DNA from: Thermoleophilaceae bacterium
GTDB taxonomy: Bacteria > Actinomycetota > Thermoleophilia > Solirubrobacterales > Thermoleophilaceae
Direction: 5' to 3'
DNA: 64,000 nt
Assembly: GCA_030447905.1 (NCBI GenBank)
Contig: JAUJNZ010000002.1
Location: 168,569 to 232,568 of the forward strand
Each line of letters starts with the position of its first letter. The stretch's first letter is position 1. Positions 24,467 to 49,234 of this stretch are shown in pieces. The position numbers were made by a program, and so were the translations under genes. The notes beneath the pieces are model-generated. The model made no database searches. It was not told the DNA's origin and saw nothing but the letters and a program-made list of their open reading frames with translations.

Positions 24467-24675
24467 TCACACCTCCTTAGCGGGCCACCCGACCGGCCCC
24501 GCGCCGGTGAGCGGGGCGGGACTGAGACAATAGGGCCCCCGCCGACTCCGCGCGACCGTTGCGCGACAATCCCCGTCCCTGCTAGGACCCCTCAGCGGTC
24601 TCTAGCGGTTTATCGCCACGGGCGCGACTGTCGCGCCGTTACAACGCAACTCGCTGGTCAACCGCCAGCCCCCCA
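24467..24675. other. non-coding sequence next to the tRNA-Sec fragment
   Basis: About 210 bp upstream of the ABM gene; no gene recognised. Confidence 0.35.
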
Positions 24676-24741
24676 CGGAGCGGCGATGGAAGCGAACCCT
24701 GCAAGCGGAGGGCTGCTCCGCCCTGCGGTTTTGAAGACCGG
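24676..24741 (-). tRNA. 3' fragment of a selenocysteine tRNA (partial, copy 1)
   Basis: Read on the minus strand this has CCGGT CTTCAAA ACCG, an anticodon stem and loop with the TCA anticodon, then a long variable arm with GCGGAG/CTCCGC stem and CAGCC loop, a degenerate T arm containing GGTTCGCTTCC, and the acceptor 3' strand GCCGCTCCG. The 5' half (which should begin GGAGCGGC) and D arm are absent, so it cannot be functional. Same part, same orientation at 30729. The variable and acceptor parts of the two are identical. Confidence 0.72.
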
Positions 24742-30380: not shown

Positions 30381-30728
30381 CTCGCCGAGGAGCGTGCCTT
30401 CGCTCGATCCCGGCCGTGGTTCCGCGCTTGCCTCCACATACGGCAGCCTACCTGGCACGTGGCGCCCGGGGTCGAACGGTCGATAATGCTCGCCGCTGGC
30501 ATGGCCCCCTCTGCTCGCGGGTCTCGACGCGCTCGCTCGATCGCCCGCGTCGCCCGAGCGCGACGCGGCGGGTGAAGCGCAGGCCCAGAGACACCGCGAC
30601 CGAGCCTGCGTGCGATCGGCAGGAGTGCCGGCACACCTGCGATTTCGGCCAATGAGCCGAGAGTCGCCGCCCAAGGCCGGCTCGGCCTGCCCATCCGAGA
30701 AAGCGCTACTGTGCAGGCCTTCTCACCA
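30381..30728. other. non-coding gap with a dispersed repeat
   Basis: About 350 bp with no gene. Contains the repeat at 30608-30635 also found inverted at 44532-44559. Confidence 0.35.
30608..30635 (+). repeat. dispersed repeat, copy 1
   Basis: The core GCGATCGGCAGGAGTGCC and its flanks match the reverse complement of 44532-44559 at 27 of 28 positions. A third, shorter match lies at 54858-54879. Confidence 0.55.
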
Positions 30729-30791
30729 CGGAGCGGCGATGGATCGAACCATCCAAGCGGAGGGCTGCTCCGCCCTGCCGGTTTTGAAGAT
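30729..30791 (-). tRNA. 3' fragment of a selenocysteine tRNA (partial, copy 2)
   Basis: Same part of a tRNA-Sec as at 24676: CTTCAAA loop with ACCGG stem side, GCGGAG/CTCCGC variable stem with CAGCC loop, a T arm with GATGG/CCATC and TTCGAT, and acceptor strand GCCGCTCCG. The matching 5' stem half is missing, so sequence identity ends within the anticodon arm in both copies. Confidence 0.7.
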
Positions 30792-35886: not shown

Positions 35887-36007
35887 CGTGTAGGCGCCTG
35901 GCCAGCGCGGGATCCCCGGGCCTCATTCTTGATCGACTCGGCGATCTCCATTGCCGCGTTGCCGGGGTGGCAGGCCTCTGGTGGGGTCGCTCTCTGGCGC
36001 CGAACGT

Positions 36008-36285
36008 GCCCGAGTCGGTCATCGACCTCGAGGTCCTGGCGCCACCGGACCTCGAGGAACTCTTCGGCCTCGTCGGCGGATCGATCTTTCACGGTGAGCC
36101 CGCGCTCGACCAGTTTCCTGCGCCCGGCGCCGCTCCTGTCCCGGTACGCCAAGCCGATCGAGGGCCTCTACCTCTGCGGCTCGGGGACCCATCCGGGCGG
36201 CGGCGTAACCGGTGCTCCGGGACACAACGCCGCTCAGGGGGTCCTTCGTGACCGGCTCCGTGGAGCCTGGGGGCGCGACCGCTGA
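36008..36285 (+). pseudogene. C-terminal scrap of an FAD-dependent oxidoreductase (CrtI/PYROXD2-like)
   Basis: Reads [34 protein letters not shown] and, after one frame change near 36117, [20 protein letters not shown] then [12 protein letters not shown] and stop. This is the C-terminal end of phytoene-desaturase-like flavoproteins, which close with [18 protein letters not shown]. The FAD-binding N-terminus is missing. Confidence 0.72.
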
Positions 36286-36621
36286 CAGGCGCAGCATTGA
36301 GGTAGCGTCCCCCGAAGCCCGCATAGGGGCTCCAGGCGAAGGCTCGCACTTTCAACCTCCTGCAGTCGACGATGCTGGCTCTCGCTCACTCGGGACAGCT
36401 ACCAGGTCCGAGTGCCTTGCCCGCCGTGGGGAAACTCACGTTCAAAGGGATCCGTCTCCCGGACCGCTTGCAGAAAGGCGCTGAGACCGTCGAGGAGATT
36501 TGGATGACTCGGAGCGACGGGCAGGGTCGTTGCGGCCCGCCCCACGAGGGCTCGCGCCAAGCGACGCCCGCCGAACGCCGCGCGATCGTCGGGAGGCCGT
36601 CCACTCGCGATTTCCAGCCAT

Positions 36622-36972
36622 GTGGGCGACCGGGCCGCGGCCGCCGGCTATCGCGAGCGCGGGTCCTGGCCTGCGACCTTCGACTCGCTCTGGCGCGCGC
36701 TCGAGGCTCGCCACGGCCCCTCGGAGGCCGCCCGCCAGATGGTCGATGTGCTCGTGTTCTGCCGGGATCTCGGCGCCGCGCGCGTGGAGCTCGCCGCGCG
36801 AGGTGCCCTCTCGGCCGGAGCGCTCGAGGGCGGCGCGGTGGCCGTGCTCGCGCGCCAGAACGACCGCATCGCGGCGGAGCCGCTCTCGGATCTGCCCGAT
36901 CGTCTCGCTGCGAGCGTGCGTCCGGAGCCCGACCTCTCGGGCTACGACGCGCTGATCGGAGGTGCGCGATGA
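36622..36972 (+). mobile_element. IS21-family IstA C-terminal fragment
   Basis: Reads WRALEARHGPSEAARQMVDV, CRDLGAARVELAARGALSAG and VAVLARQN, the C-terminal region of IS21 transposase (IstA). The stop is followed at once by MSANHRG and stop, the truncated start of the usual istB helper gene. The catalytic core is missing. Confidence 0.65.
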
Positions 36973-37087
36973 GCGCCAACCACCGGGGTTAGGTCGTCTG
37001 CCCTGCCGAGCAGCATTGCCGGTCGAAAGACCTTGACTGATCGACGCTGCCGTATAAAGTGCCGCCTTTCCAGACGACCGAGGACCC

Positions 37088-38770
37088 TTGGCCGGCACCA
37101 CGCTCACCCGGCACGACATCCACGACCTGAACGAGGGGAAGGTCGAGGCCTTCTCGGTCGAGAACCCGCCGGGCTGGGATGCGGTCGCCTCTACTACGCC
37201 AAGGCACTCCAGAAGATGGGCTGGCTCGAGCCCGGCACCGGTAGCGGCGACCCCAAGCCCACCACGCCGTCGCAGGGGATGCCGGCCATGACGCAGAGGT
37301 GGAAGTACAGCACTAACCCGAGCGACTACTTCTTCTGGGCCGGGATGCACTGGTCGCCCGGCGATGACTGGCAGTGGTGGCGCGGCGTGATCCCGGAGCC
37401 GTTCAACGAGTACTGGGGCCACTAGCACCACGGCGCCGCGCAGGTCGAGCAGTACTTCCTCCCCTGGCACCGCATCTACATCTACTTCTACGAGGTCATC
37501 GTCCGCGGGCACGTGCAGGAGCTCGGCGGCCCGGACGACTGGGCACTGCCGTACTGGAACTACAGCTACCAGGACCCCGACGACCCGTCGGTTCCGTGGC
37601 CGCGCGCCCGGCTCCCGTGGGTGTTCTGCCAGGCGAAGCTCCCCGACGGGTCTGGCAACCGCTCTACGTCGACGACATCAGGATCCGCGGCCTCCAGCCG
37701 ACCTGGCCGAGCGGGCCACAGCAGGGTGAGACCATGTACCTCGTGAACACCACGCCGCCGTACGCCGCCGCCTACGGCAACGCCACCTACCAGACCCGGA
37801 CAACCAGTCAAACGGGTTCAACCCCACGCTCGATGGTACCCCGCACGGCATGGTCACGTAGACACCGGCACGGGCTCGCAGGCGCTGTCGGACACGGGCT
37901 GGATGTACAGAACCCAGACCGCCGGCTTCGACCCGATCTTCTGGCTCCACCACTCGCAGGTGGATCGGCTCTGGGTCGGCTGGAACGCGCTCGGGGGGCC
38001 GAACCCCGACGGGCGCTGGCTCACGGCCGAGGACGACGACCCGAAGCTGCGCCCGGTCCGCTGGAATTTCTGGGCGGACGACGACATCGACAACAAGTTG
38101 GTGGTCTACCCAGGCGAGATGGTCGATCCGGAGAACCTCACCGGCGAGCACTTCCGGTACTCGTACCGATACCAGGACCTGCCGCCCGAGCCGGACCGGC
38201 AGATCCCGGCGCTGCTCAGGCTGGCGGAGGTCGTGCCGAGGGAGCTGCTCCGCGCGGTCCGGCCGAGCGACTCAACCGCGCTGCCGCAGGCGGCCGGCGA
38301 GCGCGAACTCGCGACCGACGGGAGCGGCCTCGAGATCCACCACCAGCCGGTGACGACCCGCATCTCGTTGCCGGACGAAGCGCCGGAAGTCTTCCGCGCC
38401 TTCGCGCCGGATGTTGATGAGGAGCCACCGCGCGTGATGCTTTACCTCGAGAACATCACGGGCGCGCACGCGGGCAACTACCTCGTCTACCTCAATAACA
38501 CGGAGGTCGACCGCGACACCGCGGACCAGGTCGCGCACTTCGTCGGGGGGTTCACGGCGTTCGGCGCCGACCACCACGAGGGCCACGAAGGCCATGGCGG
38601 CATGAGCGCGAGCTACGACATCACCGACCTGATCGCCTACCTGCGTGCCCGGGGCGAGTGGGACGAGGCGGGCGTGAACGTGACGATTTGCCGGCGGCGC
38701 CGGAGGGGTTCGACCTCGTCACCGGGCCCGTGAAGGTCGGGCGAATCAGCATTCGCACGAGCTGGGGAAG
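37088..38770 (+). pseudogene. tyrosinase-family copper oxidase, broken
   Basis: A type-3 copper oxidase of about 550 residues in several frames. Copper-A motifs: MHWSPGDDW, then HHGAAQVEQYFLPWHRIYIY; copper-B: HGMV and FDPIFWLHHSQVDRLWVGW. The C-terminal half, over 250 residues to about 38690, is one clean frame. It carries a TAG at 37423 where a Trp is expected, and about five frame changes (near 37190, 37640, 37800, 37850, 38690). It would oxidise phenols. In its present form it cannot be active unless some of these are errors. Confidence 0.72.
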
Positions 38771-38947
38771 ACCTTGGCGGCGAGGATCAGCACGGCGGGC
38801 CGAGTCTGGCAGTGAGGCGCGCCGAGGGCGCCTGCCCCGCGAGGTGCGCGCCGACCTCCAGACGCCGCCTTCTAGGAGCGACGTGCGGCGATCTCGACAC
38901 CGTGCCACGCTCTAGCCGCCTCCAGGACCGAAAATGAGGGGTGGCCG

Positions 38948-39515
38948 GTGAGGACGGTCGTCACGCCACTCAGACGAGCCATCGACGCGAACCCCGAACT
39001 GCTACTCAACCTCGCGATCGGTTGGGATGCCCTAGAGCGCTTCAAGGCCACGCCCGACTACCGGGAGCCAGTCGCGAGGGTCCGGCACCGCTGGGGCGGG
39101 CACCCGCTGGGCTACCCCACGGCGGCATTCGAGGCCGGGCGGCGCTCGAGCTCTTCCTGAGGTCACAGAGCGAGACGAGGAAGCCGTGCTCGACGCGCTC
39201 GAGCCGGTGCCTGCGGCCTTAATCGTGCTCGACGGCGATCATGAACGTGGCGTAGATGTGGCATTGAGTAGGGGGCTCGGGGTGGTTTTCTGCACGACCT
39301 GCCCCGGGGCACTGATCCGCGCCGTGCCCCGCCTCGAATGGTCGTTCATGGATTGGCGATGCCCGGCGACGGGTCGCGTCTCGCATGCAAGCGGCTCGGT
39401 CTGCCTGCTGATGCGAGGAGGCGTCGGGGAGCGGCTCAACCCGCTCCGCACGTTCGTCGGCTCGCTGGAGATCGAGGACTCAGACCTCAACCAGACGGTG
39501 CGACATCTCGACTGA
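38948..39515 (+). CDS. hypothetical protein, frameshifted
   Basis: Reads MRTVVTPLRRAIDANPELLL, NLAIGWDALERFKATPDYRE, PVARVRHRWGGHPLGYPTAA, then in later frames ALELFLRSQSETR and VLDALEPVPAALIVLDGDHE to the stop at 39515. About 185 residues with one or two frame changes near 39140 and 39185. I recognise no family. It lies 20 bp before the DUF4383 copy and may form an operon with it. Confidence 0.45.
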
Positions 39516-39534
39516 AGAACAGGAGCGCAAAGCA

Positions 39535-40035
39535 ATGGAGGCAGCTCAAGGTTTCGGGGCCGACGCAAGGCGAGAGGGCGCCAAGGAGGGGGCGGGGCGC
39601 ACGCTCGCGCAGGCCTTCTGCCTGGTGACGGGGCTCGTGCTGGTCGCGGTCGGGGTGCTCGGCTTCTTCTTCGGCGGAGGCGCCTTCACCACCGGGCCCG
39701 GCGTGAGCGGCGAGCCTTTCATCGTCTTCGAGGTCAACGGCTGGCACAACATCGTCCACCTCGCATCGGGCGCCTTCCTGCTGCTGATGGCTGCGAAGCC
39801 CGCCACGGCGATCACCGGCGCGCTCGCGTTCGGCGTCATCTACGTGGTCGTAACCGTGTGGGGGTTCGTCGACGGCAACGACATCGCGACGATCGTCCCG
39901 GTCAACGCTCCCGACAACTTCCTGCACCTCGCGCTGGCGGTCGTCGCCATCCTCATCGGCGTATCCGCCGGAGGGCTCGTGGGCTCCGCGCGCCGCGGCT
40001 CCGGGGCGGCCTCGGAGGCCCCAGGGCGGGCGTAA
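39535..40035 (+). CDS. DUF4383 membrane protein, copy 2
   Basis: A 166-residue paralogue of the protein at 4628, with the same four helices and VNGWHNIVHLASGAFLLL. The ribosome-binding site and first 137 nt differ at only one or two bases, the last shared 110 nt are identical, and the central 250 nt is clearly diverged. Intact reading frame. The C-terminus differs (GAASEAPGRA). Ends 10 bp before the SRPBCC gene, so probably co-transcribed with it. Confidence 0.9.
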   Translation: MEAAQGFGADARREGAKEGAGRTLAQAFCLVTGLVLVAVGVLGFFFGGGAFTTGPGVSGEPFIVFEVNGWHNIVHLASGAFLLLMAAKPATAITGALAFGVIYVVVTVWGFVDGNDIATIVPVNAPDNFLHLALAVVAILIGVSAGGLVGSARRGSGAASEAPGRA

Positions 40036-40045
40036 GCGCACTTCC

Positions 40046-40513
40046 GTGAGCGAGATCGAGGCAGCCGGGTTCATACCAGCTCCCCCGCCCCGCGTGTTCG
40101 CGTTCCTCGCCGACCTCGATAATCACTGGCATCTCGCCGACCCGTTCATCGAGATCCTGAGCCTGGAGCGACGGTCACCCGATGCGGGCGCCCACGGCGG
40201 ACGGATCCGCATGCACGGACCCTTTGGTCTCGCGCTAACCGCGGTCACTCGCGTCCTCGAGGCAACGCCCACGGAGAGCATGAGCGGGAGCGCGCAGGTG
40301 GGCCGGAGTACCCGTGCCCGGGTGAGGTGGGGGCTTACGCCTCACCACGGAGGCACCTGGGTGCACCTCTCCGCCGAGCTCGAGCAGGCCGACGTCGTCG
40401 ACAGGCTCCTGCTGACCCTCGGGGCGCGGACGTGGTTTCGCCGCCGCTTCGCCGCGGTGATCCGCCGACTCGGCGACCGCTTCTCCACGACCATGGCGGC
40501 CGAGGCCTCGTAA
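40046..40513 (+). CDS. SRPBCC-family protein
   Basis: A 155-residue protein with the helix-grip (START-like) fold: AAGFIPAPPPRVFAFLADLD at the start, a hydrophobic cavity lined by beta strands, and the long C-terminal helix DRLLLTLGARTWFRRRFAAV. Such proteins bind lipids or small hydrophobic molecules. GTG start 10 bp after the DUF4383 gene. Intact. Confidence 0.82.
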   Translation: MSEIEAAGFIPAPPPRVFAFLADLDNHWHLADPFIEILSLERRSPDAGAHGGRIRMHGPFGLALTAVTRVLEATPTESMSGSAQVGRSTRARVRWGLTPHHGGTWVHLSAELEQADVVDRLLLTLGARTWFRRRFAAVIRRLGDRFSTTMAAEAS

Positions 40514-40620
40514 CCCGCGTCCACGACGGAGTCCGTACGTGCCGACGGGCCCGCGCGGCGAGGCTCCGCCGATCGGGCACAGATAAGGCGATCTGGGTCC
40601 CATTCCCACAGAGCGCTCAG

Positions 40621-40690
40621 TGCTCTCCGTCGATGTAGTCGAGGTTGTCCTCGGGTCGGGCGATGAGGAAGGCCTCTTGGGTCCCCCGAG
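40621..40690 (-). other. C-terminal coding-like scrap
   Basis: Minus strand reads QEAFLIARPEDNLDYIDGEH and stop. It looks like a real C-terminus but has no upstream gene; it ends where the NrdJ scrap begins on the other strand. Confidence 0.3.
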
Positions 40691-41165
40691 GGGATCACCA
40701 ACAAGCCGGAGATTCCCTTCGCCAAGTCGATGCCCGACTACATCATGCACTGGCTGGCGTGGCGCTTCCTCGACGCCGATACGCAGGAGGAGCTCGGGAT
40801 CCTCACGCCGGAGGTCCGGGCGCGCAAGTCCGCGCAGGAGGCGCTCATGCGCGGCGATACGGCGGGGCCTACGAACGGCGGTGGCAACGGGCCGGGGGAC
40901 GGCTCACCCGATGCTGGAGGTGCCGCTCCTGAAGGCATCCGGGGGGAGTCCTCGACGGCCGAGCCGACCTCTCAGGCGGCCCCGAAGGCGCCGGGCACGA
41001 CCCGGGCCGCCGCCGAGGCCCTCACCGACGAGCCCCCGGTGCTTCCCGCCCGCCTTCAAGGGCCTCGATCTCGGACCCGCGTGCGGGCAGTGCGGAGGGA
41101 TGATGCAGCGCACGGGCTCGTGCTACACGTGCTCGAGCTGCGGGAACAACACGGGCTGCGGGTAG
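40690..41165 (+). pseudogene. C-terminal scrap of B12-dependent ribonucleotide reductase
   Basis: Reads ITNKPEIPFAKSMPDYIMHW, RFLDADTQEELGILTPEVRA and, after one frame change near 41030, ACGQCGGMMQRTGSCYTCSS then CGNNTGCG and stop. This is the C-terminal end of class II NrdJ, with the cysteine-rich tail that re-reduces the active site. The remaining 85-90% of the enzyme is absent, so it is a displaced fragment, not the cell's functional gene. Confidence 0.75.
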
Positions 41166-41348
41166 GCGGCGGCGCCCGCGGTAAGCAGCGGCGCCGGCTG
41201 CTCAGCCCGGCGCGGCGGTAGGCGAGCAGAGGTGCAGCGACAAGCGGCGTAGGCGCTATATGCGTCGGCCACTTACCCGGTGGTCCTCGCCGCCCTAGCG
41301 TCGCGGGCGACGCGCCGTCGGAGCCCAACACAACGCCCGGAGCGGTCC

Positions 41349-42215
41349 ATGTCAGGTAGAGTGCGTCCACTGCAACGTATGCTCGCGCCGAGCAAGTGGC
41401 GGCGGCGCGCGATTCCAGGGCTGGCCGCCACCCTCGCCGCCGCAGGCGCCCTCGCCGCCGCCGGTGCCCGGGCCGACGACCCGCCGGCGCCGGGCTACCA
41501 GCCGGTCACGGTCCACTCCCCCAACAACGAGGCCTTCGGTGACTGGGCTGAGCGGACGAGGGTGGCCGTGACCTGAACCGTGACGGGGTCAAGGACATCT
41601 GGGTCGGCGTTCCGAGCTATCAACGCGACGACCGGCCATACGGGCGCGTCTACGCGGTCGACGGCGCCTCGCTGGCGAGCCCTCAGGGCCAGCGGCTCTA
41701 CCCCGAGATCCTTTACAAGATCCATCCTCCCGAGCCGCAGCAGGGAGCCCTGTTCGGGTTCTTCATCGAGAACCCGGCGACCTGAACGGCGACGGCATCC
41801 CGGAGCTCGTGGTCGGCGCCGACCGCCAGGACGTCCCGATCGACCCGACCGACAACTCGCAGGTCTGCGAGCCCCATCTCGAGCGCTGCCACCAGAACCA
41901 GGGAAGGCCTGGGTCTACGACGGCAAGACCAATCACGTGCTTTATGAGCTCAACAACCCGCGTCCCCAGGGCTCGCCCCGGCACTTCGCCCGCTTCGGCT
42001 CGCGGATCGGCCGGGCCGGCGACGTCTCCGTCGCCGTCCAGGCGGTCGTCTCGGCTGCGACCGGCGCGCGGCCCGCGGCCTGGAAGGAGACCGTGCCCGC
42101 CTCGTCGCCGAAGCCGTCGCCCCGAATCGCGACCGTCGCTCCGGCGCCCGCCGCGGACGGGGTGATCTCGGTGATCGCGGGCGCGCCGTTCGGGCTAGAG
42201 GGCGCCGGGCTCTAA
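41349..42215 (+). pseudogene. secreted FG-GAP repeat protein, broken
   Basis: Starts with a signal peptide (MLAPSKWRRRAIPGLAATLA...AAGARA), then SPNNEAFGDWAERTRVAV. After frame changes near 41575, 41780 and 41905 it continues DLNRDGVKDIWVGVPSYQRD, GALFGFFIENPGDLNGDGIP, ELVVGADRQDVPIDPTDNSQ and YDGKTNHVLYELNNPRPQGS. These are FG-GAP blades with Ca-binding DxNxDG loops. Too few blades for a full propeller, so the 3' part was probably also lost. Confidence 0.68.
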
Positions 42216-42244
42216 GCCGGGTCGAGCATCGGCCGATCAGCCGG

Positions 42245-42525
42245 GATGAGCTAGTTCTCCTCCGCGTGGCGAACGGCCTTCGAGCGGCGGTCGGTGTGCG
42301 CGGCGTCCACTCGACCGAGCGTTGGCCGAACTCGTGGTCGTGGGGATCGCGGTAGGCGCAGCCGCAGTACTCGAGGTCGCGGGCGATCGCGTAGTCGTAG
42401 TTGCCGTAGACCGTGGGGATCGCACGGTCCTCGATCAGGGCGCAGACCTCGTTCTGGTGCGGGTCGTGGCCAACGAGGTCGCCGCCGCACCAGACGCTCT
42501 CAACCTTAAGGTCATCGATTGCACC
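42245..42525 (-). pseudogene. metallophosphoesterase scrap
   Basis: Minus strand reads VESVWCGGDLVGHDPHQNEV, CALIEDRAIPTVYGNYDYAI, ARDLEYCGCAYRDPHDHEFG. This is the N-terminal half of a YfcE-like metallophosphoesterase from the GGDLVG motif through GNYD. The beginning and catalytic remainder are missing. Confidence 0.65.
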
Positions 42526-42872
42526 TGATCCCCCTCGACGAAGGAGAACTCCTCAAGGTCAATCTCGACAAGAGCCGCGCGGTCATCGAGAGCCGCGCGC
42601 CGACGCGCTACGAGGATCGCGCGTCGATCCGAACGCGGCTGCCTGCAAGTCAGCCGCCATATCAGGCCCATACCGAGCTAACGGTGCCGATGGCGAAGAC
42701 CTTTCGTCCAGGCGCTGCGGGAGTCCGAGCGCGTGGTTAGCTGGAAGTCCATCCGGTCCTCCTTCTGAGGGTGAGTCGTCGCGGACCCACAGCCTCCGAG
42801 GAGGGCCGGATGTCTCAGGCGTTCACAACGTGCGTGGGCGGCTCATCTAGAACGGGCATAAGGTGCTCCGTG
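42526..42872. other. mostly non-coding gap
   Basis: About 350 bp. It contains the short reading frame at 42678-42752 with a strong ribosome-binding site and otherwise no gene I can name. Confidence 0.35.
42678..42752 (-). other. orphan gene start
   Basis: A 24-residue reading frame MDFQLTTRSDSRSAWTKGLR ending after four more residues. Its ATG is preceded by AAGGAGGACCGG, an excellent ribosome-binding site, so it is probably the first exon-like remnant of a truncated gene rather than a peptide. Confidence 0.3.
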
Positions 42873-44006
42873 CTACTCGCAGGCCTTGCCGTCGTTGTCT
42901 ACGTCGAGATCCACCGGATCGCCCGGCGGTGTAGGGATCGGCCCGTCGACTATGGAGCAGAGCCCGCGCCGCAAGCCGCCTCGGGACCGGCGCCTCTCCG
43001 CGCGCCTCTCGGTCGCCCGCCTCCGCCTTTCCCTGGCACCGATTAGCCGCGCGAACTGATCCGCGCGCCTAAGCTCTGCGCGCTCGCGGGCGCGGGCGCG
43101 CTTTCGAGCAAGCGCCTCGCGCTTCTGAGCGCAGGTTGCCTGTGGCCCCTCCTCGTGCTGCTTTGCCTCGTTTTCGGCCGCCTCGAAGCGGTCGGAGTAC
43201 TTGTCGTTGGGCGGGATGTTGAGCGCCGTGGCGTAGCCCTTCTCGATCAGGGCGAGGTTGTGCATCTTGCTGCCCCGCGACAGGTAGGCGAGCGTGCGGT
43301 CGTAGAGGTCCTTTCGCTTTGCGCCGAGCTCGTAGCGCACGCGCTTTCCCTCAAGGCGCCGACGAGTGAAGCGGGTCGCCGCGGTCTCGCCGCACCCCTC
43401 CCTGGGCGCGTCGACGCCGATGAGGCGGGTCTTGCCAAAACGGGTGAGGACGACGGTGTTGCCATCGATCACCCGCTCGACGCGAACAGTCGGGCTCCCG
43501 ACTGTCTGCCTAGGAAGGAGTCTCGAGAGATTGCCCGTGGCGCTGAGGATCACCGCGGGAGCGATAAGTGCGAGAACGCCACAAATGGCCAAGATGACCG
43601 GTTTCTGCCACCGAGCTAAACCCTGCTCGCGAGCCGGCGGGTGAAGCGTTTGAGAAGGCGCTCGCTCGCTCGCACCCCATGCGCGCTCAGCAGACCCCAC
43701 TTGCCGGGAAAGCGGATAGACCCAGACATCGGACCTCTTTCGAGCCCCTGCGAGCGGCGGGTCTACGCCTAACCCCTCGCGGCGCAGCGCCTCCTCGACT
43801 TGCGCACGGGCCTCAAGGGTGACTTCGCTGAAGCCGTAGGCGTCAAGGAGCGCTTCTAGTCGCCAAGTGGTTGCCTGCGGCGGCGGCTCCCCTCCCCGCT
43901 CGTCTGACTCGTCTGAGGGCGGTTCAGGCGGTGGGATGACCAGTGTCTCGCCCTCGTGCTGGGAGAAATCGACGATGGTGGTCGCGCCCGTGTGCCTCGC
44001 TCTCAT
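42873..44006 (-). CDS. membrane-anchored thermonuclease-like protein
   Basis: A 377-residue protein. Residues 1-130 are a hydrophilic N-terminal region, then one hydrophobic helix KPVILAICGVLALIAPAVIL. Next comes a staphylococcal-nuclease-like (TNase) domain: VRVERVIDGNTVVLTRFGKT, RLIGVDAPREGCGETAATRF and RKDLYDRTLAYLSRGS. Then an arginine-rich coiled coil and a C-terminal DLDVDNDGKACE, the Ca-binding 'excalibur' motif. Intact. The nuclease would face outside the cell. It is one of the few intact genes in the 30-48 kb region, just 200 bp from the Cas4 scrap. Confidence 0.78.
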   Translation of the reverse strand: MRARHTGATTIVDFSQHEGETLVIPPPEPPSDESDERGGEPPPQATTWRLEALLDAYGFSEVTLEARAQVEEALRREGLGVDPPLAGARKRSDVWVYPLSRQVGSAERAWGASERAPSQTLHPPAREQGLARWQKPVILAICGVLALIAPAVILSATGNLSRLLPRQTVGSPTVRVERVIDGNTVVLTRFGKTRLIGVDAPREGCGETAATRFTRRRLEGKRVRYELGAKRKDLYDRTLAYLSRGSKMHNLALIEKGYATALNIPPNDKYSDRFEAAENEAKQHEEGPQATCAQKREALARKRARARERAELRRADQFARLIGARERRRRATERRAERRRSRGGLRRGLCSIVDGPIPTPPGDPVDLDVDNDGKACE

Positions 44007-44204
44007 CCGAAGGCATAGAGGCTGACCACGTCACGGGGCTCGTTCGAGATGCATCATCGCAGCCTTCTGCAGCGCGCCTCCTCCTGCACCCAGAGGGCTT
44101 TGCCGTGCGGACCGCCGGCGGCGCGACCACGGCGCGGCCATGAGGGAGCGCTGGAGCAGGTCGTGCGCGGGGCCTACGAGCTGGGCGGGCTGAGGAGGGA
44201 GCAA
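44007..44204. other. non-coding gap
   Basis: About 200 bp before the Cas4 scrap; no gene recognised. Confidence 0.3.
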
Positions 44205-44480
44205 CGCTCGGCTTACCTGCACGCATCCTCGACGAGCACGTCTACTGCCCCCGCCTGGCGTACCTCGAGTGGGTCGATCAACGCTTGGAGGAGAGCGCGG
44301 ACACCGCGGAGGGCACCTTCGCGCACCGCCGCGCCCACCAGGAGCGGAGCGCACCGCCGCAGCCGGACCAAATAGGCGGCGACGCCCTCGCGACCTCGGT
44401 CACCTTGTCATCGGAGGAACTCGGGCTGATCGCGAAAATCGACGTCCTCGAGCCGCGTGGCGACGCCGTCGTGGACCTGA
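44205..44480 (+). pseudogene. Cas4 (probably Cas4-Cas1 fusion) N-terminal scrap
   Basis: Reads LPARILDEHVYCPRLAYLEW, VDQRLEESADTAEGTFAHRR, TSVTLSSEELGLIAKIDVLE. This is the start of Cas4 as found in type I-G Cas4-Cas1 fusions: the first iron-sulfur cysteine in YCPRLxYLEW, the DTxEGxxxHRR segment and the RecB-like ID motif. Sequence diverges after GDAVVDLTAP, before the QhxxY and three-cysteine parts. There is no start codon and no cas1 domain. Not functional as it stands. Confidence 0.68.
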
Positions 44481-44754
44481 CCGCACCTGGCCGTCTGCCG
44501 CCCTCTCGCCGTCCTGATGGCGAACCGCCCCTGTGCGGGCACTCCTGCCGATCGCACGCCGATCGCACGGGCAAGCCCGGTCGTCCCCGACTCGACCTCC
44601 TGCAGAGCCGCGCGGCAACGCCGCTCCGCGTCAGGGCGGGTCAAACTCTGCGGACCACCCATAAGCCGCCTCCGCCAAACGACCCTTACTCCTGCGGAGG
44701 CCTCCGTAATGCCGGGCCACAGCGGCTCACGCCTCGACGTCAAGCTGTGGGCGC
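44481..44754. other. non-coding gap with a dispersed repeat
   Basis: About 270 bp between the Cas4 scrap and the mannosyltransferase. It holds the repeat at 44532-44559 and a tandem 11-bp duplication of CCGATCGCACG at about 44548-44569. Confidence 0.35.
44532..44559 (-). repeat. dispersed repeat, copy 2
   Basis: Reverse complement of 30608-30635 at 27 of 28 positions. Confidence 0.55.
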
Positions 44755-45635
44755 ATGGCAACCGCCCCGCGCGCGCTCGAGCGGCGACATCCGGCCGTCG
44801 GCCGTCTGCTGGCGAGGTTGCGACCTGGCTTCGGCGCGACCGGACTGGTCGGTGCCCTTGCCGTCGGCTGGGCCCTCGCTTTGGGCGCGGCGGCGGAACG
44901 CGCCCCTTCTCCCCGCCGACTTCGAGCGGCCCCCGCCCCGATCATTCCGTGGGCCGCTGGCCGGGGCGGCCGACGAGCTCGGCCTTGCCCTGAGCCTCGA
45001 GGCCGTCGCGGTGCTCGTTCTGGCGGCGAGCGGCTGCTACCTCCTCGCCCTCTGGGGCGCCCGGGAGTTTCGGGTACTCGTCGTGATCGCGGCGCTCATC
45101 GCTCTCCACGTCGGGTTCGCCCTCTGCCCGCCAGTCATCTCGGCAGACGTCTTCGGCTACCTCGCCTACGGACGCCTCGAGGTGCTCCACGGGCTCAGCC
45201 CGTACACACACGCACCAGCCGCCGTGCCCGGCGATCCGCTCCTTGCCTACGTCGGCCTCCAAGGTCATCCCAGTCCCTACGGCCCGCTGTTCACGCTCGG
45301 CAGCTACGCGGCCGCGCCGCTCGGGTCGGTCGCCGGCCTGTGGACGATGAAGGCAGTGCACGCCGCCTCCGCGCTCGCGTGTCTCGCGTTCGTCTGGGTG
45401 TGCGCTCGCCGACTCGGCCGTGAGCCGCTGCCGGTCCTCGTGTTCGTGGGCCTCAACCCTCTCTGGCTCGTGTGGGCAGTCGGCGGTGCGCACAACGACC
45501 TGCTGATGATGGCCGTGGCGATGGGCGCAGCCGCCCTGCTCACTCGCGGTCGCTCGACCTCAGGGGCCGCGCTCGGCGCGGTGGCCGTCGGGGTAAAGCC
45601 CACCGCTGCCCTGTTCCTCCCCTTTATGGTTCGGC
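44755..45635 (+). pseudogene. polyprenol-phosphate mannosyltransferase, interrupted by an IS element
   Basis: The 5' half of a GT87-like multispanning mannosyltransferase. After a frame change near 44900 it reads LALSLEAVAVLVLAASGCYL, PPVISADVFGYLAYGRLEVL, HGLSPYTHAPAAVPGDPLLA, HPSPYGPLFTLGSYAAAPLG and GLNPLWLVWAVGGAHNDLL. DVFxYxxYGR and PxYGP are family motifs. It ends at about 45635 in the residues VKPTAALFLPF, where the IS110 element begins. The 3' half is not found on the other side. Confidence 0.72.
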
Positions 45636-46626
45636 CCGAAGGCGTAGTCCTCGCCCTTGACCACCAAGTGCCAGCAGAGCACGGCCAGCTTGCGCGCGGT
45701 CGCTACGACCGCGATCTGCATCCCGCGCCGGGCGCGCGCGCGCGAAGAACGCGCGCAGGGGACCCGGGGTCTTCGCCGCCGCCCACGCCGCCTCGACGAG
45801 CATGCCGCGCGCGCGCGCGCGCCTGCTGGTGATCCGCCCGTGCTGGGCGGGCTGACCGCCCGACTGGCGCACCCTGGGGTTGAGTCCGAGGTAGCTGACG
45901 AGCCGGTCTGGGGTTGCGAAGCGGTGAAAGTCACCGACCGCCGCCACGATCGAGCGCGACGGTGGCATCAACGCCGGGGATCGTCATGAGCCGCGCGACC
46001 TCGGGTCGGTGCAGCCCGACCTTCGAGCTCCGCGTCGATCAGGCGCAGCTCCTCGCCGGCGAAGTCGAGCTGGCGCAGAGCGCCTCGACCGCCTGGCGCT
46101 CGTCGGCAGGAAGCTCCTGCTCGGACAGCCACGCGCGTCCCTTGTGGCCGAAGAGGTCCGCGGCCGGGCAGCGCGGCACGAGGTTGCGATGCAGGATCGC
46201 GTGGACCCCATTCTTCAGCCGCGTGCCTGGCGCACGACGTGCGCCCGGCGGGCGACCTGGCGCCGCAGCGCGTGGGTCTCGTCGTCGGGTAGCCAGGACG
46301 AGGGCAGAAAGCCGGCGGCCAATAGCTGGGCGAGCACCTCGGCGTCGACCTTGTCGGTCTTGACCTTCGCCTGGGCGATCGCCCTGGTCTTCGCCGGTTC
46401 GATACGACCACGCGCGCGCCACGCGCGGCTCGAGCAGCTTCGCGATCGCGTGCGTGTTGCAGGTCGCCTCGATCGCCACCTCGTCGGTCGCCGCCAGGCT
46501 GTCGGCGAACAGCCTGAGCGCCTCCGGAGTCGCGCTGATCTGCCCGATCTGACGGACGGACCCGTCCTCCCAGATCGCGACTTGGGCGAACTCGCGGTGG
46601 ACGTCGAGCCCGATGCACCTTCTCAT
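45636..46626 (-). pseudogene. IS110-family transposase, frameshifted
   Basis: Starts with RRCIGLDVHREFAQVAIWED, the DEDD RuvC-like fold, from an ATG with GGAGGGAGAGGGC upstream. It continues over several frames with AATDEVAIEATCNTHAIAKL, then LKNGVHAILHRNLVPRCPAA and, near the end, VALSIVAAVGDFHRFATPDR, LVSYLGLNPRVRQSG, the transposase_20 domain of IS110/IS1111, then KGEDYAFG. At least three frame changes, so it is inactive unless these are errors. Confidence 0.78.
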
Positions 46627-46740
46627 GCCCTCTCCCTCCTTCGCGGTGGTCGACGTGGGAGAGCAGGCGGGCAAACGACACCTACGGATTCGCGCTCGCG
46701 GCGCACCCGGGCGAGTCGCAGGGGCGGCCAAGTACTAACG
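45636..46740 (-). mobile_element. IS110-family insertion sequence
   Basis: Covers the transposase gene below plus its short flanks. IS110 elements usually lack long terminal inverted repeats, so exact ends cannot be set; the left end is placed where mannosyltransferase homology stops. Inserted in the mannosyltransferase gene at about 45635. Confidence 0.72.
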
Positions 46741-46885
46741 CGGGCTCGAAGCCCATCGAACGATGAACGGCCTGCCCGACCTGCGTTTGCTCCCGGATGC
46801 CCCCGTCCCGGACGGTCGCACCGTACTCACCGGCCTGGACGCCTCGGGCGTCGGGGCGGTCATAGGTCACGGGCGGCATCTGCGC

Positions 46886-47178
46886 CCTTTCATACGGGAT
46901 ACCAACCCGCTCGAGCGCCTCAACCGCGAGATCGGCCGCCGAACCGACGTGGTCGGCACCTTCCCCAACGACCAAGCGCTCGTGCGCCTCGCTACCTGCG
47001 TGGCCATCGAGCAGAACGACGAGTGGCTGGTGGGCCGACGCTACTTCAGCGTCCAGTCGATGGAGTCGCTCCTCAAGGAGCGACTCCATCGCCCAGAGGA
47101 GGAGGTGAGAGCAGCTCCAGGCGGCTTGAGGCGCCGACCCACCTACCGACGATCTCTTACACCAGTGCTGGGACTTGA
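46886..47178 (+). mobile_element. IS256-family transposase C-terminal fragment with a likely right end
   Basis: Reads RDTNPLERLNREIGRRTDVV, GTFPNDQALVRLATCVAIEQ and NDEWLVGRRYFSV: the C-terminus of IS256/Mutator-type transposases. About 75 bp past it, TCTTACACCAGTG and GGGACTTGACTC look like an IS256 right terminal repeat. The catalytic DDE residues are missing. Confidence 0.68.
47059..47090. repeat. perfect 15-base foldback hairpin
   Basis: GATGGAGTCGCTCCT and AGGAGCGACTCCATC are exact reverse complements separated by two bases. It lies in the C-terminal coding end of the IS256 fragment. Confidence 0.7.
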
Positions 47179-47602
47179 CTCCGGGCGCCCTCCAACAAGT
47201 AAGCAGGCCGGAGGGGCCGCGACCGCGAGACGCCAGCGGAGGAGGAGCCGCCGGCTTCGGGGCATCTCGGAGGCGGTGCGGATTCGCCCAACATCGAGTT
47301 CGACCCGTTCTCCGCGCGAGGGCGGCCAGGCGTCGCTCCCTCGGAGGTCAGCGACTCAATCTCGCTAAAGCCGCCGGGCGGAGATCCGCCGCAGGCATTC
47401 GTTGGTCCCGAGCCGTCGCAGCCGCGTCGCCAAGGGACGAGTAGACAGGCGCTTCGCGCGCGGAGTCGGTCGAGGTAGAAGCCGTCGTGCCCACAACACT
47501 CGCGCTCACCGTTGAGAACAGAGAAACGAACCCGCTGTGCGTGAAGTTGGGACTCGAGCGCGGACTTTCCGGGCCAGCACAAGTAGCGGCGGCCCGGAAA
47601 CA
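47179..47602. other. non-coding gap
   Basis: About 420 bp between the IS256 end and the glycoside hydrolase gene. I see no gene. Confidence 0.35.
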
Positions 47603-48754
47603 TCAAGGTCGACCGACGGCGTGGACGCTCTGGCGAGCCCCGGTGACCCGCAGGAGGCTCCACCACGAGGGCTTCGCGCGGTCGGTGTCGAGCAGCCCGG
47701 TCGTCTTCGACCACGTGAGGTCCGGATGGTTGATGTCTTGCAGGCAGAACCAGATGGCGCCCATGACGTTGTAGCGGTTCATGGCGGCGGAGTAGCCGCC
47801 CCTCCCTAGGAGGCGGTAGTAGAGCTCCTTGAGGTAGCTCGCCTGCTTGGTGCGACCGACTTGGAGTCTCCCGTTGGGGGAGGCGCTCGACCACCCGATC
47901 TCGGTGACGTAGATCGGTCTGTAGGTGCGAATGGAGTTCATGGTCGAGCGCATCGCCCCGATGCCCTCCACCACTCGAGACGGGGTTAGTGCGTAAGGGT
48001 GCAGTCCAACGGCAGAGAACTTACGGCCGATGCCTGGGTCGGCACGGAACATTCCGCGCAGGAAGGTCCGGGCATCCCACCCCTGCCCCGGGGCTGGGTA
48101 AGTCAGGCCGGCCGTCAGGATTCGGACCTCTGAGTCACCGCGGTTCGCGGCATCGCTCGCGACCCGCAGGAGCTTCGCGTACTCACCCGGATTGGGGCGG
48201 CCGTCCCAGAAGACGTTTGTGTTCGGCTCGTTCCAATGCTGCCAGTAGAGGGGCCGGGACGCCTTGGCGATGTTCGCGTTGCTGCCGCGCCAGAGGGTTC
48301 CGTTCGGCCCGTACCGGGCCGCCGCCATCTGCGCGAAGCGGGCGAAGTAGCTCCTAGCGGTGCTTGTCCGCGGGGCCGCCGTCTGCCGGGACGAGACCCA
48401 CCTCGGGGTCCCGAGGAGCATCGGCATGATCCTCACCCCGCGGCTGGCGGCGCTCACGATGACTCGGTCATAGCGGCTCCAGCTGAATTCGCCTTTCCGC
48501 GGCTCAACGTAGGCCCAGTTGAGCTGGATGCGCATCGTCTTGACCCTCGCGCTGCGGGCCCTGTTGAGCTGCGTAGCCGTGGGCGAGCCGAAGACTCCGA
48601 GCCCGGTGAAGTAGCTCGTATCCGTATGGGAGGCCGAGGCGCTTGCCGGGGCGAGGGCCAGGGCGAGGGCGGCGGCCGCCAGCACGGCCGCCGCGGCGGC
48701 CGGGAGGCGAAGCCCGATGGCGGGCCGAGGAGAGGGGGCGATTTTCGGTGTCAT
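47603..48754 (-). CDS. secreted glycoside hydrolase, GH5/GH39-like
   Basis: A 383-residue exported protein. Signal peptide: LRLPAAAAAVLAAAALALAL with a SASASH cleavage site near 43. The catalytic TIM barrel has MRIQLNWAYVEPRKGEFSWS, RVIVSAASRGVRIMPMLLG, WQHWNEPNTNVFWDGRPN (acid/base Glu in NEPN) and PIYVTEIGWSSASPNG (nucleophile Glu). That is the GH-A clan layout. The substrate is not clear. Such genes are common in this class. Intact; AAGGG before the ATG. Confidence 0.85.
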   Translation of the reverse strand: MTPKIAPSPRPAIGLRLPAAAAAVLAAAALALALAPASASASHTDTSYFTGLGVFGSPTATQLNRARSARVKTMRIQLNWAYVEPRKGEFSWSRYDRVIVSAASRGVRIMPMLLGTPRWVSSRQTAAPRTSTARSYFARFAQMAAARYGPNGTLWRGSNANIAKASRPLYWQHWNEPNTNVFWDGRPNPGEYAKLLRVASDAANRGDSEVRILTAGLTYPAPGQGWDARTFLRGMFRADPGIGRKFSAVGLHPYALTPSRVVEGIGAMRSTMNSIRTYRPIYVTEIGWSSASPNGRLQVGRTKQASYLKELYYRLLGRGGYSAAMNRYNVMGAIWFCLQDINHPDLTWSKTTGLLDTDRAKPSWWSLLRVTGARQSVHAVGRP

Positions 48755-49234
48755 ATCCCTTTGGTGAGCATCAGTGGGGTTTCAGGCGGCTACACGGCAA
48801 ACCGCCGGCGGCGGCAAAAGTTGCGTCGGCCGACGTGACCTCTAACCGCAAACCCCTCCCCCGTCGGTCCACCGCCCTCTCGCTCATCGCCGCGGGCGGG
48901 TAGGACGTTCGTTCGGGGGCGGACCTACCTTAGAGACCGCGCGACCGGCTCTGCGCTCGTAGGCGCCGCGCCTGCAGCATCGTCGCTGCGCTCGGGAAGC
49001 ACACGCCGCGCCCGAGCAGAGGTTATCGACGTGCTCGCGCTCGACGGCCAGGCGCACGGAGCCGGTCAGCCGGCCTGACGACACGCCCAGACCGCTCCTC
49101 GAGCGCGTGCAGCGCGCGATGTCGAGCTCTTCGGCGGCGCGGCCCACCAGGCTCTGTCCGCCCGCAGCCGTCTGCTGAGGTGGGCAGCTCCTCGAGCGAG
49201 GACGGCGTTGCCGGCCGACTCGCGCCCCGGCGCA
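48755..49234. other. non-coding gap
   Basis: About 480 bp upstream of the hydrolase. Several overlapping frames are open here but they have random composition and no family match. Confidence 0.35.

Follow-up and report, generated by a model that had tools for sequence, protein, structure and literature searches.

The window, as we call the whole 64-kb stretch of DNA analysed here, contains, at 44216..44475 on the plus strand, a piece of a fused cas4-cas1 gene of CRISPR type I-G. This fragment consists of 87 codons (codons ~12-98), delimited by profile NF049935, PDB 7mi4, tblastn against full-length family members and alignment; the translation of this frame reads PARILDEHVYCPRLAYLEWVDQRLEESADTAEGTFAHRRAHQERSAPPQPDQIGGDALATSVTLSSEELGLIAKIDVLEPRGDAVV. 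The original prediction had given a span of 44205-44480, and the match is retained with slightly narrower borders. On the upstream side lies an intact-looking ORF for a nuclease with an SNase domain and a hydrophobic stretch (42873..44006, minus strand; PF00565, E 1.4e-12; thermonuclease model, E 4e-21), a neighbor located outside any CRISPR locus. It is followed by a scrap (44093..44192, plus strand) from the gene of a GNAT acetyltransferase; this piece is frameshifted, was recognized by DNA identity and by tblastn in two frames, and directly precedes the cas4 fragment. This scrap shares 78-82% DNA identity with better-preserved relatives in the same assembly (G000:C3:83492-83596) and in the sister species Thermoleophilaceae bacterium MGR_bin90 (G009:C78:10209-10298), where the ORF encodes a GNAT protein. 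On the downstream side, an incomplete copy of the sequence that follows tRNA-Sec begins where cas4 ends (44474..44572, plus strand), with 80-88% identity to the copies on contigs C24 and C13. Farther along are the middle part of a gene for an MptB/GT87-like mannosyltransferase, lacking both ends (44936..45631, plus strand; TIGR03459, positions 78-263/470), whose paralogs align by tblastn over residues ~175-405 of 554 only, and a broken IS110-family transposase gene whose N-terminal and C-terminal portions lie in separate frames (45624..46731, minus strand; NF033542, positions 236-325 and 1-66). The truncated mannosyltransferase, the split IS110 and the membrane nuclease had all been named as neighbors in the original prediction. 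Because the flanks match other genes or repeats of the same genome, unrelated sequence bounds the Cas4 homology on either side.

Between ~36 and 49 kb, the window is made up of short pieces that match many different contigs of sister genomes, and longer collinear matches resume from ~49.2 kb. The stretch 36000-49200 is a mosaic of gene fragments, the matches of which are different sister contigs or paralogs in the same genome. It looks like a rearrangement hot spot, and the cas4 piece is one item within this debris region. The same stretch contains a C-terminal piece of a tyrosinase gene with DUF7868 (37903-38733, plus strand), an ORF from which the N-terminal copper domain is apparently mostly absent.

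The repeat copy that abuts the fragment belongs to a dispersed unit, which combines the 3′ portion of a tRNA-Sec-like gene with ~130 bp of conserved DNA lying downstream of it and occurs in several copies in the genome. These copies are located at 30608-30779 (minus strand), 24673-24722 (minus strand) and 44474-44571 (plus strand) of the window, on contig C24 (L052 and L053) and on contig C13 (L054). One of them (L053) follows a full tRNA-Sec gene above the Rfam threshold (RF01852); others have the tRNA-Sec-like 3′ part only, and in the window itself no Rfam hit exceeded the gathering score. The units may be att-site relics left by elements integrating into selC.

Identity and truncation of the fragment

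Profile search revealed that the NCBIfam model NF049935 (cas4g_cas1g) matches the fragment at positions 3-90 of 546, with an E-value of 1e-23; the score of 83.7 bits falls short of the 560 bits required of full-length members, as the fragment is only part of the protein. The fragment is also matched by the PADLOC Cas1g model (E 4e-18) and by residues 12-96 of the type I-G Cas4/Cas1 fusion in PDB 7mi4 (E 1.3e-15). Generic Cas4 models score lower than the I-G fusion profile, and the Pfam model PF01930 by itself is weak (E 0.047). Its identity to complete type I-G Cas4/1 fusions from the same family and order is mostly 45-65%. It possesses the N-terminus HVYCPRLAYLEWV, typical of I-G fusions, and keeps the first Fe-S cysteine within EHVYCPR. 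Judged from these sequence comparisons, the Cas4 match is far beyond chance and the assignment to subtype I-G is right. The original prediction had taken ~90 residues, including the first iron-sulfur cysteine, for the start of a Cas4 from type I-G Cas4-Cas1 fusions and had named the remnant of an adaptation module as one option; the comparison of Cas4 and Cas4-Cas1 profiles that it proposed bears this out, with cas4g_cas1g beating every other Cas4 model.

No start codon is present between the upstream stop and the Cas4 homology, which breaks off directly before the conserved PV[DE]YKRG motif. The catalytic [DE]xK, the distal cysteines and the Cas1 domain are absent, and the first cysteine is the sole one left; the fragment has neither a complete Cas4 nuclease site with four cysteines nor a fused Cas1 domain. 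In MbCas4/1, the mutation E101A of the catalytic acidic residue abolishes Cas4 cleavage (PMC10504553); by our alignment-based reading, E101 would sit at the PV[DE]YKRG motif, the site of the catalytic acidic residue and the lysine. With no start codon, no catalytic motif, and no distal cysteines or Cas1, the fragment could not therefore yield a working protein. It is very probably the non-functional remains of a type I-G cas4-cas1 gene and does nothing now.

The frame had been predicted to diverge after the Cas4 part. The homology indeed ends at 44475; tblastn for a frameshifted Cas4 continuation beyond this position found none, and a frameshift in cas4 is replaced as the explanation by unrelated multicopy DNA at 44474-44572. 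Against the relic reading, the 87 codons are still open with no stop inside, so that pseudogenization was recent or the piece was short enough to escape. The reading frame around the fragment runs for 562 codons without a stop; at a GC content of 70%, such long frames are to be expected. A Cas4-mannosyltransferase fusion encoded by the 562-codon frame was considered and rejected, as the frame crosses the non-coding repeat copy and a mannosyltransferase piece without both ends.

Type I-G components in the genome and a sister species

As originally predicted, the window contains no cas1 or other cas gene by tblastn with the full I-G protein set, and neither an exact nor a looser scan detected a CRISPR array in it. 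The whole-genome search for an I-G locus and arrays that had been suggested covered the assembly of 2.58 Mb in 25 contigs, the completeness of which is 95.3% by the tool's estimate. The cas4g_cas1g profile has one match in the whole assembly, the fragment at 44216-44475. A Cas1 search of the whole assembly, with E-values up to 10 admitted, gave no match, and profiles of Csx17/Cas8g and Cas7g gave none in the assembly or the genus. The Cas3g model yields partial, weak matches in the assembly (the best with E 1.6e-10 and ~40 bits vs a cut-off of 400 bits), and these look like general helicases; the gene set of cas8g, cas7g and cas3g of a type I-G system was not found. Over the assembly, the array search addressed the I-G repeat of the family, GTSACC-N16-GGCTCCGTTGAAGC, and turned up no copy with up to 3 mismatches. 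Without a complete I-G locus in the assembly, there is no intact parent with which to compare the fragment; such a locus could sit in a gap of the incomplete assembly (95%, 25 contigs).

A second relic occurs in the sister species (G009). Its locus L022 holds a cas4g start of 31 codons that ends in a stop and has a possible GTG start. About 1 kb upstream, in the same orientation, lies the beginning of cas3g (TIGR02621, positions 1-48, E 1.5e-8); an MNT nucleotidyltransferase ORF and a HEPN ORF lie between the two. This decayed type I-G locus spans 3874-5069 of L022 (G009:C100). The relics share one 2.25-kb island between gltD and the next conserved stretch, and the flanks of the island are ~51 bp apart in the window's genome, which represents an empty site. 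The G009 relic was therefore rejected as a positional ortholog of the fragment. It is nevertheless the closest DNA match of the fragment, with 87% identity over 71 bp, and the differences at codon positions 1/2/3 number 1/0/8 over these 71 bases. As eight of the nine differences fall at third codon positions, both relics descend from functional genes, which implies that they diverged mostly under purifying selection as protein and were then lost.

Origin of the fragment

We propose that a type I-G system decayed in this genus and that the piece was left in, or moved to, the debris region, a reading to which we assign a probability of about 0.9. The ancestor of the genus would have possessed a type I-G locus, probably in the order cas3g-cas8g-cas7g-csb2-cas4/1g-cas2-array after that of a family member, perhaps at more than one site or shifted between sites. 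Deletion and rearrangement would then have removed the system along a path that we reconstruct only by inference, with ~260 bp of cas4 surviving in, or being moved to, the debris of gene scraps, a copy of the selC-downstream repeat and a broken IS110. The piece may have decayed in place or been carried in already broken; the data are compatible both with a vertically inherited locus that decayed and with the horizontal arrival of a broken piece. An isolated relocated piece, the second option of the original prediction, is likewise possible, given that the I-G relic of G009 occupies another site, which is otherwise conserved between the two genomes but empty in this one.

The fragment's site differs from that of the G009 relic, it abuts a selC-downstream repeat copy near a broken IS110, and the surrounding 36-49 kb are a mosaic matching many contigs. 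It could thus be a scrap duplicated or horizontally acquired via a mobile element (IS110 or a selC-integrating element) that never belonged to a working CRISPR locus of this lineage. We consider such an origin possible yet rather unlikely, since the closest DNA match is a same-genus relic (87%, 71 bp), which favors a genus-level ancestral locus, and no integrase is found among the window ORFs scanned. A version in which tRNA-Sec-integrating elements carried I-G cas modules in the genus, their decay leaving cas scraps beside selC-derived repeats, is highly doubtful.

Two further readings concern what the fragment encodes. Solo-Cas4 proteins are known, with catalytic motifs and four cysteines retained in their members (PMC5704561), and the open frame of 562 codons might suggest a functional solo-Cas4 or a truncated Cas4 with a non-CRISPR role. 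This is extremely unlikely: the fragment is truncated at both ends with no start codon ahead of the homology, it lacks the distal cysteines and the motif of the catalytic acidic residue (E101 in MbCas4/1, PMC10504553), and the long frame passes through unrelated debris, as expected at 70% GC. Solo-Cas4 genes lie outside cas loci and have a complete ORF that keeps the catalytic motif and all four cysteines; membership in this group is refuted on sequence. The fold common to Cas4 and RecB-family nucleases also brings to mind a RecB/AddB-like nuclease fragment outside CRISPR, and long ORFs of the relatives contain weak cas4g_cas1g matches. Those matches, however, span positions ~37-217 with E-values of 1e-5 to 1e-9, compared to positions 2-90 and E 3e-23 for the fragment, which moreover has the HVYCPRLAYLEWV N-terminus typical of I-G fusions. 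This reading is next to impossible; the I-G fusion profile scores best, and the assignment to a non-CRISPR RecB-like nuclease that the original prediction named as its refutation did not occur.

The fragment is an ordinary relic, with no sign of a new function or mechanism. It records that a genus of uncultivated Thermoleophilaceae has lost its type I-G CRISPR system, with different relics in two species, and a strong Cas4 match in a genome need not imply a CRISPR system.

Comparison with known systems

Compared to the Cas4/Cas1 fusions of NF049935 and PDB 7mi4, the fragment keeps ~87 N-terminal residues with the first Fe-S cysteine and the EGxxxHRR and AKID motifs, whereas the start, the catalytic [DE]xK, the distal cysteines, Cas1, the effector genes and the array were not found. 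Intact I-G loci with 36-nt repeat arrays occur in the same family and order. In one family member (G027, L024), Cas3g, Cas8g, Cas7g, Csb2 and Cas4g/Cas1g are arranged in this order and followed by a 36-nt repeat array; cas2 presumably lies between Cas4g/Cas1g and the array, a placement that follows the usual order and not a profile match. The G009 relic is, like the fragment, an N-terminal piece of cas4g with no working system found, but it has 31 codons and resides at another chromosomal site, beside gltD, where a cas3g relic and an MNT/HEPN pair accompany it. That cas loci can degrade to single pseudogenes is well established: in those of Escherichia, Salmonella and Shigella, partial deletions, truncations and IS insertions leave lone cas pseudogenes (PMC2886076). 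Those loci belong to the Escherichia subtype, whereas the relic described here is of type I-G and displaced from any array.
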